This document shows, piece after piece, positions 837 through 59,051 of a stretch of 64,000 nucleotides of DNA (position 1 is its first letter; every line of letters begins with the position of its first letter). The translations under genes and the position numbers were made by a program. The notes beneath the pieces were generated by a model that ran no database searches, was not told the origin of the DNA, and saw only the letters and a program-made list of their open reading frames with translations. Location: NCBI RefSeq assembly GCF_014230055.1, contig NZ_JACHVA010000126.1, forward strand, positions 1 through 64,000, given 5' to 3'. The stretch is from Puniceicoccus vermicola. GTDB lineage: Bacteria; Verrucomicrobiota; Verrucomicrobiia; Opitutales; Puniceicoccaceae.

Positions 837-928
837 ATTGACATCAACATCAACGAAACATCATAAACCAATCACCAACGCCTTGAGGCACTCAGACCTT
901 TTTGCGAAAGATTTTGGACACTAACCGG

Positions 929-1067
929 CTCTCGCCGATCCTCTCCGCGGTGCTGGAGGGATTTGTGCATGACGGAAGTGTGGAGCGGAATGGCGAAAGC
1001 CATTTCGATGGGGCTTGGTTGAGAAATTCGAGATTTGGCCGCCTTTCCGTAGAAACGGCTCTCGCCG
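929..1067. repeat. Dispersed repeat copy A (139 bp, hairpin-forming)
   Basis: Nearly identical to 5415-5553 in the same orientation (about 7 differences in 139 positions by eye). The left part can pair with its own interior: GGCTCTCGCCGATCCTCTCC near 927-946 is an imperfect inverted repeat of GGAGCGGAATGGCGAAAGCC at 982-1001. A second copy of the left arm starts at about 1050. The same arm pair recurs in the tandem array at 56984-57440. Confidence 0.85.
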
Positions 1068-1186
1068 TTCCTCTCCGCTGGGTTGGGTAAGCGTTCTGGT
1101 CGAAGCCTCTCCCGGGTTGATCACTTTCTTTGGCTTGGAAGGATTTTCTGGATTGAGTGATCTTGATTCTGGAGCAAGATGGCGAT

Positions 1187-5339: not shown

Positions 5340-5414
5340 GATAGAGTCCGCAAAGTTTCTATCGTTTTCGATCCCGGAGCGATGGATGGGGCTTGTCCGG
5401 ATACTCAGAAACGG

Positions 5415-5553
5415 CTCTCGCCGTTCCTCTCCGCGGTGTTGGAGGGATTTGTGCATGACGGAATTGTGGAGCGGAATGGCGAGGGCCATTTCGATGGAGC
5501 TTGGTTGAGAAATTCGAGATTTGGCCGCCTTTCCGTAGAAACGGCTCTTGCCG
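5415..5553. repeat. Dispersed repeat copy B (139 bp)
   Basis: Same orientation and almost the same sequence as 929-1067. Shared core strings include GAGAAATTCGAGATTTGGCC and GGAGGGATTTGTGCATGACG. The two copies bracket the CsgG-like gene pair 4.5 kb apart. Confidence 0.85.
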
Positions 5554-5689
5554 ATACTTCCCGCAGGGTTGGAGGGAAAGACCGCTTCGGGGGCTTGTGG
5601 GTTTGTCGACTTCTCGGCGAGATTCTCGCGCGCATTTTCACCCCGAATTCGGTGACAGAATTTTTTCCAAAAAATTAGGGAAATATTTC

Positions 5690-24004: not shown

Positions 24005-24116
24005 GGAGCGCGGAATTCATTCCGCCCCGCATGCCTCTCAGGCCTTTCGCCTTAGATTCTGAGGGAAACTTTTCATGCGCAGCCAATCTGACGGGGCGGA
24101 ATGAATTCCGCGCTCC
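24005..24116. repeat. Inverted pair of 25-bp REP-like palindromes
   Basis: GGAGCGCGGAATTCATTCC (continuing CGCCCCG) at 24005-24029 is exactly repeated in inverse orientation at 24092-24116. Each arm is itself palindromic (GCGGAAT-TC-ATTCCGC). A third exact 25-bp copy is at 43873-43897. The arrangement of two inverted palindromes about 60 bases apart is typical of REP doublets. Confidence 0.8.
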
Positions 24117-43872: not shown

Positions 43873-43897
43873 GGAGCGCGGAATTCATTCCGCCCCG
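43873..43897. repeat. Third copy of the 25-bp REP-like palindrome
   Basis: Identical over 25 bases to 24005-24029 and to the inverse of 24092-24116, but solitary. The core GCGGAAT-TC-ATTCCGC forms a 7-bp stem. Confidence 0.8.
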
Positions 43898-48665: not shown

Positions 48666-48707
48666 AACTAAGTGACACGAAGTCTATGCCAGAAGCTAAA
48701 TAGGATA

Positions 48708-48766: not shown

Positions 48767-49729
48767 ATGAGGCGTAGGAGACAGGTTGAGCAGGAGGGTG
48801 CGAATGGGTACTATCACTTGATGAGCCGGACCGTGAATGGGGAGGCTCTCTTTGGGGATCGGGAGAGAGAGGTTCTTCGGAAGATGATTTGGCAGGTCGC
48901 TGAGTTTTCCGGTGTTCGAGTGGTGACTTATGCGGTCATGAAAAATCATTTTCATCTCTTAGTTGAGGTTTCTGGGGTGGAGAGCGCGATTTCTGATAAA
49001 GAATTGGTTCGTCGTTACCAGATTCTCTATCCCGGGCCCACCCCTTGGCAGGGGATGTCACCGGAGGTTTTTCGGTCTCATTTGGCCGAGGGCACGCGAG
49101 AAGGGCAAGATATGAGGGCGTCGTTGATTCGCCGGATGAATGATGTTTCGGAAATGATGAAGACCCTGAAGCAGCGGTTTTCGCTCTGGTATAATCGTTC
49201 TCATGAGAGGTTTGGACCGCTCTGGTCGGATCGGTTTAAGAGCGTCCTGGTCGAGGGAGATCGTTGGGCTCTGCGAACGGTTGCAGCCTACATTGATTTA
49301 AATGCGGTGCGTGCGGGGCTGGTCGAGGATCCGAAAGATTATCGATTTTGTGGATATGGCGAGGCGATTGGAGGCGGGAAGCTGGCTCGCCAAGGTCTTG
49401 CGGTGATTGAGAAGGATCTCGCTGGGTATCGGCAGACGCTTTACGGTGCCGGATCGGAAGAGAGGTTGGACAAAGTTTCGATCAGTCGAGAGGAAGCCTT
49501 GCGGGTTCTGGAGGAGGAGAAGGGGAAGCTGCCTTTGGCCGTGGTTCTTCGCTGCCGGGTGCGTTATTTTACCGATGGCATGATTCTGGGTTCGCCGGAT
49601 TTTGTGGAGCGGCAGCTGAAGCATAGTCCGGATGATCGGAAGAGGGCGCGAAAGCCCCATGCGATGAAGGGGGCAGAATGGTCAGGATTGTCGGTCGGCA
49701 CGGGGTTGCGGAAGAATCTGTTCGGATAG
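48767..49729 (+). CDS. REP-associated tyrosine transposase (RAYT, Y1/HUH family)
   Basis: 320 residues, longer than a minimal IS200-type transposase. The metal-binding HUH motif is His61-Phe-His63 (MKNHFHLLVEV). A candidate nucleophile is Tyr142 (FSLWYNRSHERFGPLW), in the position expected for the catalytic tyrosine. The C-terminal third (about 220-320) is family-specific. RAYTs nick and move REP palindromes and are usually single-copy and domesticated; the related 30-bp motifs at 48708 and 53847 are likely substrates. Start ATG 48767. Confidence 0.9.
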   Translation: MRRRRQVEQEGANGYYHLMSRTVNGEALFGDREREVLRKMIWQVAEFSGVRVVTYAVMKNHFHLLVEVSGVESAISDKELVRRYQILYPGPTPWQGMSPEVFRSHLAEGTREGQDMRASLIRRMNDVSEMMKTLKQRFSLWYNRSHERFGPLWSDRFKSVLVEGDRWALRTVAAYIDLNAVRAGLVEDPKDYRFCGYGEAIGGGKLARQGLAVIEKDLAGYRQTLYGAGSEERLDKVSISREEALRVLEEEKGKLPLAVVLRCRVRYFTDGMILGSPDFVERQLKHSPDDRKRARKPHAMKGAEWSGLSVGTGLRKNLFG

Positions 49730-53788: not shown

Positions 53789-53846
53789 GACTCCATGATT
53801 TGTCCGGAATCCGACTCTGAGACCAGCGAATCTTTTGAAATTAGGA

Positions 53847-54067: not shown

Positions 54068-56962
54068 ATGAAGACAAAAGCATCACAAGATTCCTCACAA
54101 ACTCCGTACCACACGGCTCTTAGCGTCGATCGCTATTTCTCCTCGGAAGACTGTCACCCCTACGACGAAATAAAATGGGATTCCCGCGAAGCGGTCATCA
54201 CCGGAGATCGGGGGGAGGAGATCTTCAAACAAGCGGGAATCGAGGTTCCGGCTGAGTTTTCCGACCTGGCGACGAAGATTCTCGCCTCCAAGTATTTCTA
54301 CGGAGATATCGACATGGGTCGGGATCCTTCGGCAGGAGGACGGGAATCGTCCCTGAAACAGGTTCTGGACCGGGTCTGCGGGACGATCGCTCAATGGGGG
54401 CGCGAGGATGGCTATTTTGCTGACGAGAAGGCTACGCGGGTTTTCCGGGAGGAATTGACGGCTCTCTGCGTCACGCAGAAGGGTGCCTTCAATTCTCCGG
54501 TATGGTTCAACCTCGGTCTCTACCAAGCGTATGGGATCGGAAAGGATTCGGCGAAGGGCAATTTTTACTGGAATCCCGAGTTGGAGGCCGTAGCACGGGC
54601 CGAGAGTCAGTATGAGTATCCGCAGTGTTCGGCCTGCTTTATCCAGAAAGTGGATGATAATCTTGAGTCGATCATGGATCTGGCTCGCGCCGAAGCGATG
54701 CTCTTCAAGTTCGGCAGTGGAAGTGGCACCGACCTCTCCTCCATCCGTTCGAGTCGGGAAAAGCTCTCCGGCGGGGGCCATCCGAGCGGGCCACTCAGTT
54801 TCCTCGCGGTCTACGATTCGGTGGCCGGGGTGGTCAAAAGTGGGGGAAAGACCCGGCGTGCGGCTAAGATGAACGTCCTCAAGGACTGGCATCCGGATGT
54901 TGAGGAGTTCATCGACGCAAAGATGAATGAGGAAAAGAAGGCCTGGGCGTTAATCGAGCAGGGCTACGATCCAAGTTTCAACGGCGAAGCCTACGGATCG
55001 ATTCGTTTCCAGAACGAGAACCTCTCGATCCGCGTCTCGGACGATTTCATGAAGGCCGCCAGTGGGGAATCGGAGCCGACTTGGTGGACGAAGCGGGTTT
55101 CGGACGGATCCAAATGTGAGAAAAAGGACGCCAAAGCCCTTTTCCGAAAGATTGCCGAAGGGACTCACCTCTGCGGCGACCCCGGCCTCCAGTTCGACGA
55201 TAGCATTGACCGTTGGCATACTTGCAAGGGTTCCGGGCGACAGAATTGCACCAACCCGTGCAGCGAGTATCTCTTTCTCGACAATTCCGCCTGCAATCTG
55301 GCGAGCATCAACCTGATGAAGTTCATGAAGGATGGAGAGTTCGACGCTGAGTCCTTCGCACGAGCCTGCCGGATCTTCATCATCGCTCAGGATATCATCG
55401 TCGATCGCTCCTCCTATCCGACGGAAGGTATTGCCTACAACTCCCATTGGTTCCGCACCCTCGGGCTCGGATATGCCAATCTCGGGGGTCTGTTGATGAG
55501 CCTCGGATTGCCTTACGACAGTGAAGAAGGTCGTGCTTACGCGGCGGGCATCACCGCCGTGATGACCGGAGCCGCCTATAAGGTCTCCACGGAAATTGCC
55601 CGGGCAAAGAGTCCCTTTGCCGGATACCACGATGCTCGTCATTACGGAGTCCCAAATCCGCCGATGGCCGATAATGTGGAATCGATGCAGGAGGTGATCG
55701 AGATGCACCGTAGTCATGCGGCGTCAATCTCTCCCCGTTGCCCGAAATCGATCTCCGAATTTGCGGTCGACCTCTGGGATGAGGTTAGCCGGGAAGGGGC
55801 AGAAGTGGGCTATCGAAACGCCCAAGTCACCGTTCTGGCTCCAACCGGAACCATTGGCTTCCTGATGGATTGCGATACGACCGGAATCGAGCCAGCGATC
55901 GGATTGGTGGCCTACAAGCAATTGGCCGGCGGAGGGATGTTGACCTTGCCGATTCAGACGGTCCCCAAGGCGTTGAACAAGCTTGGCTACGACGAACCTG
56001 CAATCGAACGGGTTCGCGATTACATCAAAGAGTATGGAACCGTAGAGCCGATTCAGAAAGAAGGAGAAACCCTCGAGAGTGGCATCCGCTCAGAGCATTT
56101 GCCGGTTTTTGACACGGCTTTTCGTTCGGGGCTTGGGGAAAGGTCGCTCTCTTGGCGTTCGCACATTCGGATGATGTCAGCGGTTCAACCTTTCCTCAGT
56201 GGGGGGATTTCCAAGACGGTGAATATGCCGAACCAGGCAAACATCGACGATATTCGCGACGCTTACATTGATGCTTGGAAAATGGGCATCAAGGGCGTGG
56301 CGATCTATCGTGATGGGTCGAAGAGGAGTGCCCCGATCCAGACTCGGAAAGAGGAGGTGAAGGAAGAAAAGGCGGTCCAGATCGTCACTGAACCGTATCG
56401 TCGCCGTTTGCCGGATACGCGGGAAGCCGTGACTCACAAGTTCAGCATCGGTGGTTCCGAGGGGTATTTGACCGTTGGCAAATTTGAGGATGGCAATCCG
56501 GGAGAAGTCTTCCTGCAAATGTCGAAGGCCGGAAGTACGGTTAATGGCTTGATGGACACGATTGGGATCCTCCTCTCTCTCTGTCTGCAATATGGCGTGC
56601 CGCTGGAGACGCTCGTTCGCAAGTTCTCCCACGTTCGCTTTGAGCCGGAGGGCATGAGCAAGAATCGCGATATTCCCATGGCCAAGAGTGTGATCGATTA
56701 TCTCGGTCGCTGGCTCGGCATGGAGTTCGTTGACGGCTACCGTGCGAAGATGTCTCCAGTCGCTGCCGAGGAGGAGCGACTCGCAAACGATCAAGTGATC
56801 GATTCAGCGCAAGAGGATTCTGAGCCCAGTCGCCAGCAACTGGAGTTGTTGACGGAGAGTGAGGGAAATCTCACCTGTCCTGAGTGCGGAAGCCACCGGG
56901 TGAAGGTGACGGGCACCTGCGCGTGCTGCCTCAATTGTGGCACCTCTTTGGGGTGTTCCTGA
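54068..56962 (+). CDS. nrdJ: Class II (B12-dependent) ribonucleotide reductase
   Basis: 964 residues. The enzyme makes deoxyribonucleotides using adenosylcobalamin and needs no oxygen. Sequence marks include FNSPVWFNLGL, QCSACFIQKVDDNLESIMD, FGSGSGTDLSSIRSS, NPCSEYLFLDNSACNLASIN with the active-site Cys, and VLAPTGTIGFLMDCDTTGIE. The C-terminus has a Cys-rich zinc-binding end (CPECGSHRVKV, then CACCLNCG). NrdR boxes precede it, implying repression by NrdR when dATP/ATP is high; the repressor gene is not in the window. No cobalamin riboswitch was recognised in the 279-base upstream region. No class I genes are adjacent. Confidence 0.95.
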   Translation: MKTKASQDSSQTPYHTALSVDRYFSSEDCHPYDEIKWDSREAVITGDRGEEIFKQAGIEVPAEFSDLATKILASKYFYGDIDMGRDPSAGGRESSLKQVLDRVCGTIAQWGREDGYFADEKATRVFREELTALCVTQKGAFNSPVWFNLGLYQAYGIGKDSAKGNFYWNPELEAVARAESQYEYPQCSACFIQKVDDNLESIMDLARAEAMLFKFGSGSGTDLSSIRSSREKLSGGGHPSGPLSFLAVYDSVAGVVKSGGKTRRAAKMNVLKDWHPDVEEFIDAKMNEEKKAWALIEQGYDPSFNGEAYGSIRFQNENLSIRVSDDFMKAASGESEPTWWTKRVSDGSKCEKKDAKALFRKIAEGTHLCGDPGLQFDDSIDRWHTCKGSGRQNCTNPCSEYLFLDNSACNLASINLMKFMKDGEFDAESFARACRIFIIAQDIIVDRSSYPTEGIAYNSHWFRTLGLGYANLGGLLMSLGLPYDSEEGRAYAAGITAVMTGAAYKVSTEIARAKSPFAGYHDARHYGVPNPPMADNVESMQEVIEMHRSHAASISPRCPKSISEFAVDLWDEVSREGAEVGYRNAQVTVLAPTGTIGFLMDCDTTGIEPAIGLVAYKQLAGGGMLTLPIQTVPKALNKLGYDEPAIERVRDYIKEYGTVEPIQKEGETLESGIRSEHLPVFDTAFRSGLGERSLSWRSHIRMMSAVQPFLSGGISKTVNMPNQANIDDIRDAYIDAWKMGIKGVAIYRDGSKRSAPIQTRKEEVKEEKAVQIVTEPYRRRLPDTREAVTHKFSIGGSEGYLTVGKFEDGNPGEVFLQMSKAGSTVNGLMDTIGILLSLCLQYGVPLETLVRKFSHVRFEPEGMSKNRDIPMAKSVIDYLGRWLGMEFVDGYRAKMSPVAAEEERLANDQVIDSAQEDSEPSRQQLELLTESEGNLTCPECGSHRVKVTGTCACCLNCGTSLGCS

Positions 56963-57476
56963 GCGGATCGTTGTCAGGAGATCTGTAGAAATGGCTATCG
57001 CCATTCCTCTCCGAGTGTGATCTGGAGCGGAAGCGCGATAGCGATTTCGAGGGATTACTGAGGAGTTCGTGCTTTGGCAGGAGACTGTAGAAATGGCTAT
57101 CGCCATTCCTCTCCGAGTGTGATTTGGAGCGGAAGTGCGATAGTGATTTCGAGGGATTTCTGGGGAGTTCGCGCTTCGGTTGGGGACTGTAGAAATGGCT
57201 GTCGCCATTCCTCTCCGGGTGGGAATTGGAGCGGAATCGCGATAGCTATTTCGATGGATTTCTGGGAAGTTTGCGCTTTGGTCAGGAGATCTGTAGAAAT
57301 GGCTATCGCCATTCCTCTCCGAGTGTTAATCGGAGCGGAAGCGCGATAGCGATTTCGGGAGATTTCTGAGGAGTTCGCGCTTTGGCAGGGGACTATAGAA
57401 ATGGCTATCGCCAATCCTCTTCGCGACATGATCTGGAGCGGTTGACTGGATCGTATTCTGCGGTGATTCTTGCGGG
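56963..57476. other. Intergenic region filled by a tandem repeat array
   Basis: Nearly all of this stretch is the tandem array described separately (56984-57440). Frames crossing it on both strands mirror the repeat and are not genes. Confidence 0.7.
56984..57440. repeat. Tandem array: four full and one partial 102-bp hairpin units
   Basis: Units start at about 56984, 57086, 57188, 57292 and 57394, giving a period of 102-104 bases; the fifth is truncated. Each has a left arm (GAAATGGCTATCGCCATTCC TCTCC) and a right arm (GGAGCGG then GCGATAGCGATTTC) that can pair imperfectly. The same arm sequences occur in the 139-bp repeats at 929 and 5415. The array lies between nrdJ and a flavoprotein gene. 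Confidence 0.88.
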
Positions 57477-59051
57477 GTGAGTGAAACCTATGACGCGATT
57501 ATCGTTGGAGGCGGGCATAATGGCCTGATTACGGCGGGTTATCTGGTGAAGGCCGGATGGAATGTGGCGGTTTTTGAGCGTCGTCCGATTATCGGAGGAG
57601 CGGTTTGCACGGAGGAGGACCGGATCCCCGGCTACAAGATCGACGTCGGTAGTTCGGCCCACATTATGATTCACCAAACGCCCGTCTTGGGCGATTTGGG
57701 GTTGGAGCGGTTTGGGCTGGAGTATTTGGAGATGGATCCATGGGGATACGCTCCGTCGCCGAATGGCGGGCCGGCGATTCGTTTCTACAAGGATCTCGAA
57801 AAAACTTGTGAGAGCATCGCTGCGGTCAGCCCGTCGGATGCGGAGGCTTATCGAAAGTTTGCCGATGCCTGGAAGGGGATCAATGAGGGGGCCTTGCGGG
57901 CTTTTCTGGGAGAGCCAAGCCCATGGAAGCTGTTCAAAGCTTTCTTCGGTCGCTCGATCAAGGGATGTGGACGTATCGAAATGTTGCGGAAGATATTTGG
58001 TCCATACGGTCAGCTGGTGGAGGAGACTTTCGAGAATGAACAGTTGAAGACGGCGATCCTCTGGCTGGCCGCGCAGTCGGGACCTCCCCCGGGGGAAATC
58101 GCCAGTGGTAATTTCGCCGGTTGGCACGCGATGTATCACCAGAGCGGGATGAAGCGAGCGAAAGGCGGAAGTGGTGCGCTGACGCAGGCCCTGAAGAAGA
58201 TGATTCTCGCGGGCGGCGGCACGGTCCGCGAGGACGCGCCGGTGCGCCGGATTCTGACGGATGCGAGCGGCAAAAAGACCACGGGGGTGGAATTGGAGTC
58301 GGGAGAGCAGTTCGAGGCGAAGACGGTTGTCGCTGCCTGTCACATCAAGACGACGGTGGAGACTCTCCTCGCCGACGCGCCTCTACCCGAAAGGATTCGC
58401 AAAGGCGTGGCGAAGCTGCGGATTGGCAATGGATTCGGCATGATTGTGCGATGTGCGATGAGCGGATTGCCGGAATATGCCGGAGAACCACTGAACGGGG
58501 GAGCCGGGGATTGTCACCACGGGCTCCAGTTGCTTTGCGGTTCACGGGAGGAGATCGACGATGCCTATGGGGACTTCATGCGGGGGAGACCTCCTGAAAA
58601 TCCAGTGCCACTGGCGATGACTTTTTCAGCACTCGATCCGACTCTCGCCCCGGAGGGAAAGCACGTCCTCTTCGTTTGGGGGCAGTATCATCCCTATGAA
58701 CTGCGCAATGGGGAGAACTGGGACGACATCGCGGAGCGCGAGGCGGACAAGCTACTTGCGGCAGTGGACCGCTACGCTCCAGGCACCTCGGAGAAAGTGA
58801 TTGATCGATACATCCAGACTCCTTTGGAGATCGAGAGACTCCACGGTCACCATCGGGGAAATGTCATGCACTTGGAGATGAGTTTGGACCAAATGTTTTT
58901 CTTCCGCCCACTCCCTGAGCTCTCGCGGTATCGTGTCCCGTCAGTAGACGGTCTTTATCTGACGGGTGCCAGCACCCACCCCGGAGGGGGAGTTTGGGGC
59001 GCTTCAGGACACAATACGGCGAAGGTAATGTTGAACCGCAAAGGACGCTAA
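57477..59051 (+). CDS. Phytoene-desaturase-like FAD oxidoreductase (second copy)
   Basis: 524 residues from GTG 57477. The dinucleotide motif is IIVGGGHNGLITAGYLVKAG near the N-terminus, with FERRPIIGGAV following; the C-terminal FAD segment is GLYLTGASTHPGGGVWGASG. This C-terminus resembles CrtO/PYROXD2-type oxidoreductases more than the protein at 47241 does. Carotenoid substrate is not shown. The gene starts 36 bases after the tandem repeat array. Confidence 0.82.
   Translation: MSETYDAIIVGGGHNGLITAGYLVKAGWNVAVFERRPIIGGAVCTEEDRIPGYKIDVGSSAHIMIHQTPVLGDLGLERFGLEYLEMDPWGYAPSPNGGPAIRFYKDLEKTCESIAAVSPSDAEAYRKFADAWKGINEGALRAFLGEPSPWKLFKAFFGRSIKGCGRIEMLRKIFGPYGQLVEETFENEQLKTAILWLAAQSGPPPGEIASGNFAGWHAMYHQSGMKRAKGGSGALTQALKKMILAGGGTVREDAPVRRILTDASGKKTTGVELESGEQFEAKTVVAACHIKTTVETLLADAPLPERIRKGVAKLRIGNGFGMIVRCAMSGLPEYAGEPLNGGAGDCHHGLQLLCGSREEIDDAYGDFMRGRPPENPVPLAMTFSALDPTLAPEGKHVLFVWGQYHPYELRNGENWDDIAEREADKLLAAVDRYAPGTSEKVIDRYIQTPLEIERLHGHHRGNVMHLEMSLDQMFFFRPLPELSRYRVPSVDGLYLTGASTHPGGGVWGASGHNTAKVMLNRKGR

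Follow-up and report, generated by a model that had tools for sequence, protein, structure and literature searches.

A tandem array of a GGAG-tagged REP family in Puniceicoccus vermicola and its probable cognate transposase

Alternating palindromes between two genes

We analyzed the first 64,000 nucleotides of Puniceicoccus vermicola contig NZ_JACHVA010000126.1 (assembly GCF_014230055.1), hereafter called the window. An upstream gene (54068..56962, + strand), taken from the list of open reading frames, encodes a 964-aa ribonucleotide-reductase-like protein, which was named by reading its sequence and not by family search. The downstream gene (57477..59051, + strand) encodes a 524-aa FAD-dependent oxidoreductase/phytoene-desaturase-like protein, also named by reading. 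Between them, 24 bp past the ribonucleotide-reductase-like gene, lies a non-coding tandem array. TRF reported it as the single array of the window (56971-57420; period 102, 4.4 copies, 86% matches), and a repeat search of the window found four in-register copies at spacings of 102, 102 and 104. Together with a scan for REP elements, these searches place the whole BIME-like array at 56971..57441, with nine REPs of alternating orientation in units of 102-104 bp. The initial annotation had described five units of 102 bp. The array and its period were borne out, but there are four complete units and an incomplete fifth, carrying nine hairpins in all.

In the 102-bp unit, a 26-nt element is present twice, in opposite orientations, and what looks like a single long two-armed hairpin is two short palindromes placed face to face. 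The element occurs as two subtypes, represented in unit 1 by A5-T26 (GGAGAGGAATGGCGATAGCCATTTCT) and C5-G26 (GGAGCGGAAGCGCGATAGCGATTTCG). The subtype A copies of units 1 to 4 lie on the minus strand at 56987..57012, 57089..57114, 57191..57216 and 57295..57320, and the subtype C copies on the plus strand at 57024..57049, 57126..57151, 57228..57253 and 57332..57357. In unit 2, the subtype C copy (GGAGCGGAAGTGCGATAGTGATTTCG) preserves its pairing through G-T wobbles. The incomplete fifth unit contains a degenerate subtype A REP (57397..57422, minus strand), and the array ends in a 7-nt stub of a truncated subtype C REP (GGAGCGG; 57435..57441, plus strand), recognized from its sequence. The REP at 57024..57049 forms an HH doublet (tags outside) with the next REP and folds with it end to end (z -3.8). 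Four REP doublets of the window gave folding z values of -3.8, -1.1, -4.7 and -1.2, so that two of them fold clearly and the other two weakly.

The same REP family occurs as dispersed clusters in the window. One, at 921..1076, contains three REPs (<><), and the other, at 5407..5562, contains two REPs and a degenerate third at 5537-5562; the two clusters are 92% identical (repeat family D2, 164 nt). The motif GGCTATCGCCATTCCTCTCC has 11 matches in the window at three or fewer mismatches, compared to none in 100 shuffles. These matches and the REP scan agree with the earlier proposal that the copies near 0.9 and 5.4 kb share the hairpins of the array. A separate observation concerns the start of the window: its contig and contig C141 open with the same arrangement over positions 1-810, each having an ORF of 239 aa at 91-810, which suggests an assembly break at a repeated element.

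An Rfam search of the array returned no family at gathering score, so no ready-made model would have caught the REP array. No intrinsic terminator was predicted at the array. Homologues of the oxidoreductase-like neighbor were found in 80 loci, and those in other genomes have no comparable array alongside. Judged by homologues of a neighboring gene, the genome falls in Verrucomicrobiota, close to Opitutales. We rejected a protein-coding repeat: the 102-bp period is divisible by 3, but one unit measures 104 bp, and the periods of arrays elsewhere include 109, 110, 119, 122 and 145. Plasmid or phage origin was also dropped, as there was no match.

The REP element and its genomic distribution

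The REP consists of a G(G/T)AG tag followed directly by a 9-bp hairpin, [A/C]GGAAxGGC-GANA-GCCxTTTC[T/G]. On the tagged strand, subtype A reads GGAG-AGGAAyGGC-GAnA-GCCrTTTC-T and subtype C reads GGAG-CGGAAGCGC-GATA-GCGATTTC-G. We profiled conservation using one copy per cluster and subtype, with 46 clusters for each subtype. Conservation drops at position 1 and at about 26-28, which sets the REP length at about 26 nt. The closing pair 5-26 is A-T or C-G according to subtype, each in 98% of its 46 clusters. Within the stem, pairs covary across the 278 copies: pair 10-21 is T-A in 104 and C-G in 78, pair 11-20 is G-C in 194 and C-G in 72 (A-T also occurs), and pair 12-19 is G-C or A-T. Many subtype C copies retain a G-A mismatch at 10-21. 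The paired fraction is 0.88 compared to 0.74 in shuffles, above all 1000 of them. Of the 278 copies, 269 retain a G-T wobble at 7-24, which favors the hairpin of the tagged strand; the energies predicted for subtype C are -5.8 kcal/mol on that strand and -2.5 kcal/mol on the other. The tag is GKAG in about 255 of 279 copies, with 208 GGAG and 46-47 GTAG.

The initial annotation had proposed counting copies genome-wide. The whole genome contains 287 REP copies at two or fewer mismatches, compared to 2 for a reversed control pattern. In the 1.98 Mb of the genome that was scanned in detail, 278 REPs fall into 61 clusters, the largest being an array of 19, and the family is thus both dispersed and tandem, as first noted. 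Neighboring REPs alternate in orientation in 180 of 217 cases, and all but one of these 180 inverted neighbor pairs (179) join both subtypes; 30 of 32 clusters are strictly mixed-subtype. HH spacers measure 41-48 nt in 76 of 78 pairs. TT (tags-inside) spacers range from 9 to 35 nt and are array-specific, being unrelated between most arrays. Within arrays, REPs diverge by 2.9% and spacers by 10-12%, a gap that is partly due to ascertainment because units were chosen by their REP match. According to a home-made, simple codon-usage gene finder, 271 of the 278 REPs lie outside predicted genes, at a coding fraction of 0.76. Clusters occupy 31 tandem, 21 convergent and 6 divergent gene gaps, with divergent gaps making up 164 of 715 overall.

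We compared spacers among 41 arrays and found sharing in 18% of same-contig pairs and 1% of different-contig pairs (1 of 2000 label shuffles), some of the same-contig arrays being near enough to one another for simple duplication. This pattern hints at local spread of whole units.

The strict pattern has 179 matches in this genome, whereas a search of 383 further genomes of the class gave no match. A looser pattern recovered a few copies in a genome of the same genus (G001), the closest of them GTAG-tagged, and one GTAG-tagged doublet in another genome, G094. The family is a new, lineage-expanded REP family whose expansion is seen in this genome only, the GTAG families of Opitutus terrae having been compared by description only. 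An empty-site comparison with the nearest relative, over 0.8 Mb of G001, yielded no clean empty site; two clusters alone had at least two flanking genes there, and neither was conserved on both sides. The ribonucleotide-reductase-like gene was not found in G001-G003.

A candidate transposase and other RAYT/REP pairs

A Pfam Y1_Tnp search of the genome gave 50 matches, none of which lies near the REPs of this family. The NCBIfam RAYT (REP-associated tyrosine transposase) model added several genes to those of the Pfam search, including a match at C52:76435-76800, and the idea of an orphan REP family without a transposase was dropped once this gene was recovered. The gene (C52:76339-76896) encodes 186 aa and is framed by REP clusters of this family at C52:76043-76251 and 76925-77022. 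Its product carries an HUH motif (HAH, within PDHAHF) and the tyrosine motif HYIQENPV, which also occur in other RAYTs of the genome. It matches NCBIfam REP_Tyr_transpos with an E value of 1.7e-12 at 47 bits, for a curated cut-off of 80, and scores 13.8 against Pfam, under the cut-off of 23. The best match of solved structure is the E. coli TnpA-REP (4er8), to which it is only distantly related (phmmer E 0.007). Judged from sequence, the C52 RAYT is the probable cognate transposase of this REP family.

Homologues of the C52 RAYT are found in 14 of 102 relatives, mostly one per genome, at about 31-50% identity. In G089, which belongs to another family of the order, a homologue with 47% identity (C2:168160-168696) lies 0.4 kb from GTAGCGGAACGGGGAACCCCGTTTCG, a GTAG-tagged hairpin, and related GTAGCGGATCGGCGAATGCCGTTTCG elements occur in arrays with 96-bp spacing. 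The outer arms GTAGCGGA...TTTCG are common to the G089 hairpin and to the present family; the inner stem differs, with its pairing preserved.

RAYT/REP pairs are unusually numerous in this genome. Another REP family with a GGAG tag (GGAGCGCGGAATTCATTCCGCCCC) is present in the window at 24005-24028 (+), 24093-24116 (-) and 43873-43896 (+), has 39 copies in 1.98 Mb and flanks a different RAYT gene, C139:90696, which matches NCBIfam REP_Tyr_transpos at the cut-off. Three or more additional REP families, most of them with a GTAG tag, surround RAYT genes of their own on C16, C9, C80 (20438-21312) and C92. In the array at C132:5295-6443, copies of the present family and of the GGAGCGCGGAAT family occupy a common stretch, the period being close to 138. 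The window also encodes a 320-aa Y1 transposase (48767-49729, +), which belongs to a genomic set of 36 similar genes and is akin to the TIR-associated transposases (TIRYT, GGGGWSAS motif) described in PMC3733652. The motif AAAATAGGGGTCAGGG lies beside it at 48707, with a second copy at 53846.

Origin and significance of the array

REPs are palindromes of 20-50 nt that are mostly preceded by GTAG, and BIMEs are inverted pairs of REPs in tandem (PMC8266576, PMC3733652); those of E. coli are y/z mosaics (PMC8266576). In the GTAG families, HH spacers are conserved and TT spacers are variable, and Opitutus terrae is rich in such repeats (PMC3733652). REPIN clusters are tandem copies that include flanking sequence and lie beside their own RAYT (PMC3116915). 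The array of the window belongs to this known REP/BIME/REPIN class and has all of the features that can be tested in sequence. The REP is an imperfect palindrome of 26 nt present in 287 copies, and it carries a 5' tetranucleotide, in a variant that is mostly GGAG and not the classical GTAG. As in BIMEs, REPs alternate at regular spacing in tandem units, in arrays of up to 19. As in REPINs, they form inverted doublets with an HH spacer of fixed length that fold into hairpins, clearly in two and weakly in two of four window doublets. The RAYT gene with REPs of this family on both sides corresponds to a REPtron. The initial view that the repeats do not fit REPs is thus contradicted by the tag, the 9-bp palindrome, the extragenic location, the alternation of two subtypes, the tandem clusters that include flanks and the REP-flanked RAYT.

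The GTAG REP families described by Di Nocera et al. (2013; PMC3733652), which include those of the verrucomicrobium Opitutus terrae, likewise combine a tag and a hairpin, are linked to RAYTs, and are extragenic, with tandem groups, conserved HH spacers and variable TT spacers. Their stems span 5-13 bp, a range that includes the 9 bp found here, and they too have subfamilies with alternative complementary stems; their tag is GTAG, whereas it is mainly GGAG here. E. coli BIME-2, the substrate of TnpA-REP (PMC8266576), shares the inverted alternation of two REP subtypes in tandem copies, an imperfect stem with a conserved mismatch and a tag located 5' on the folding strand. The sequence differs, and in P. 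vermicola the subtypes are distinguished by an A-T or C-G closing pair. The REPINs of Pseudomonas fluorescens SBW25 (PMC3116915) are also inverted doublets of fixed length that fold into one hairpin, and they also form tandem clusters that include flanks, with a cluster adjoining its own RAYT. Single doublets are found there, whereas in P. vermicola the majority of copies belong to large arrays with as many as 19 REPs.

We are confident that the array of the window is a BIME that arose by insertion of a REP doublet (REPIN) between two genes, followed by tandem amplification of the doublet along with its flanking bases. The mobility of these REPs is inferred by analogy with the systems above. 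The mobile unit would be the 26-nt REP, moved as an inverted doublet of the two subtypes. By the same analogy, the RAYT would bind the tagged single strand exposed at replication, cut near the hairpin and carry the doublet to new sites, and slippage or unequal exchange may afterwards lengthen the arrays. The initial suggestion that the family can multiply by replication or transposition fits with these data: transposase-linked multiplication is the best explanation for hairpins of a single family being both scattered and in tandem. We also propose, tentatively, that the strict two-subtype rule may be active, with the RAYT using the closing pair to tell left from right ends, or with same-type doublets being destroyed by hairpin nucleases, and that whole units may spread locally.

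It is also conceivable, though we consider it unlikely, that the hairpins serve the host, as RNA or as DNA, and that this is the main reason why the arrays persist; such a function might be 3'-end protection, Rho-dependent termination or the binding of gyrase or another protein, and mobility would then belong to the past. Clusters do favor gaps between tandem (31) and convergent (21) genes over divergent ones (6), but neutral insertions would likewise avoid promoters. REPs are conserved four times better than spacers, although this is partly ascertainment because copies were picked by REP match. Moreover, a tag specific to one strand is the feature that a transposase recognizes, and the array has no predicted intrinsic terminator. 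Relatives have none or almost none of these REPs (strict pattern in 0 of 383 genomes), which argues against an old essential function. Effects on the mRNA of the upstream gene, through 3'-end protection or Rho-dependent termination, or on supercoiling are unproven.

Another RAYT could have moved the REPs in trans, and the genome has about ten further RAYT-like genes that could also act on this family. The C139:90696 gene is an example, its flanking family likewise carrying GGAG, and the C132:5295-6443 array holds both families over the same stretch. We regard this as improbable, because the C52 RAYT alone is framed by the present family, and the other RAYT-type genes whose flanks were examined carry other palindromes. 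Still less credible is the view that slippage turned a chance palindrome into an ordinary minisatellite, with no involvement of transposition. Units within one array are indeed about 87% alike in their spacers and regular in length, but slippage accounts for array growth and not for dispersal: the same 26-nt element recurs in 61 clusters with unrelated TT spacers, and REPs frame a RAYT gene. Short palindromes at regular spacing could also recall a CRISPR array, an integron attC array or a structured RNA gene family, a reading to which we give almost no weight. CRISPR is excluded, in agreement with the initial annotation, because spacers are near identical within the array (87% alike within arrays); repeats also alternate in strand, no Rfam family matches, frames are not preserved from a 102-bp to a 104-bp unit, and the periods of arrays vary from 101 to 145.

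Our preferred reading, a transposed and amplified REP doublet, leaves the accepted picture of REPs unchanged. It adds a REP/RAYT pair from the Verrucomicrobiota that is characterized by large, clean arrays and a GGAG-dominant tag. Relatives that carry the same RAYT lineage and GTAG-tagged versions of the element provide a natural series for the study of tag and closing-pair recognition and of BIME array growth.
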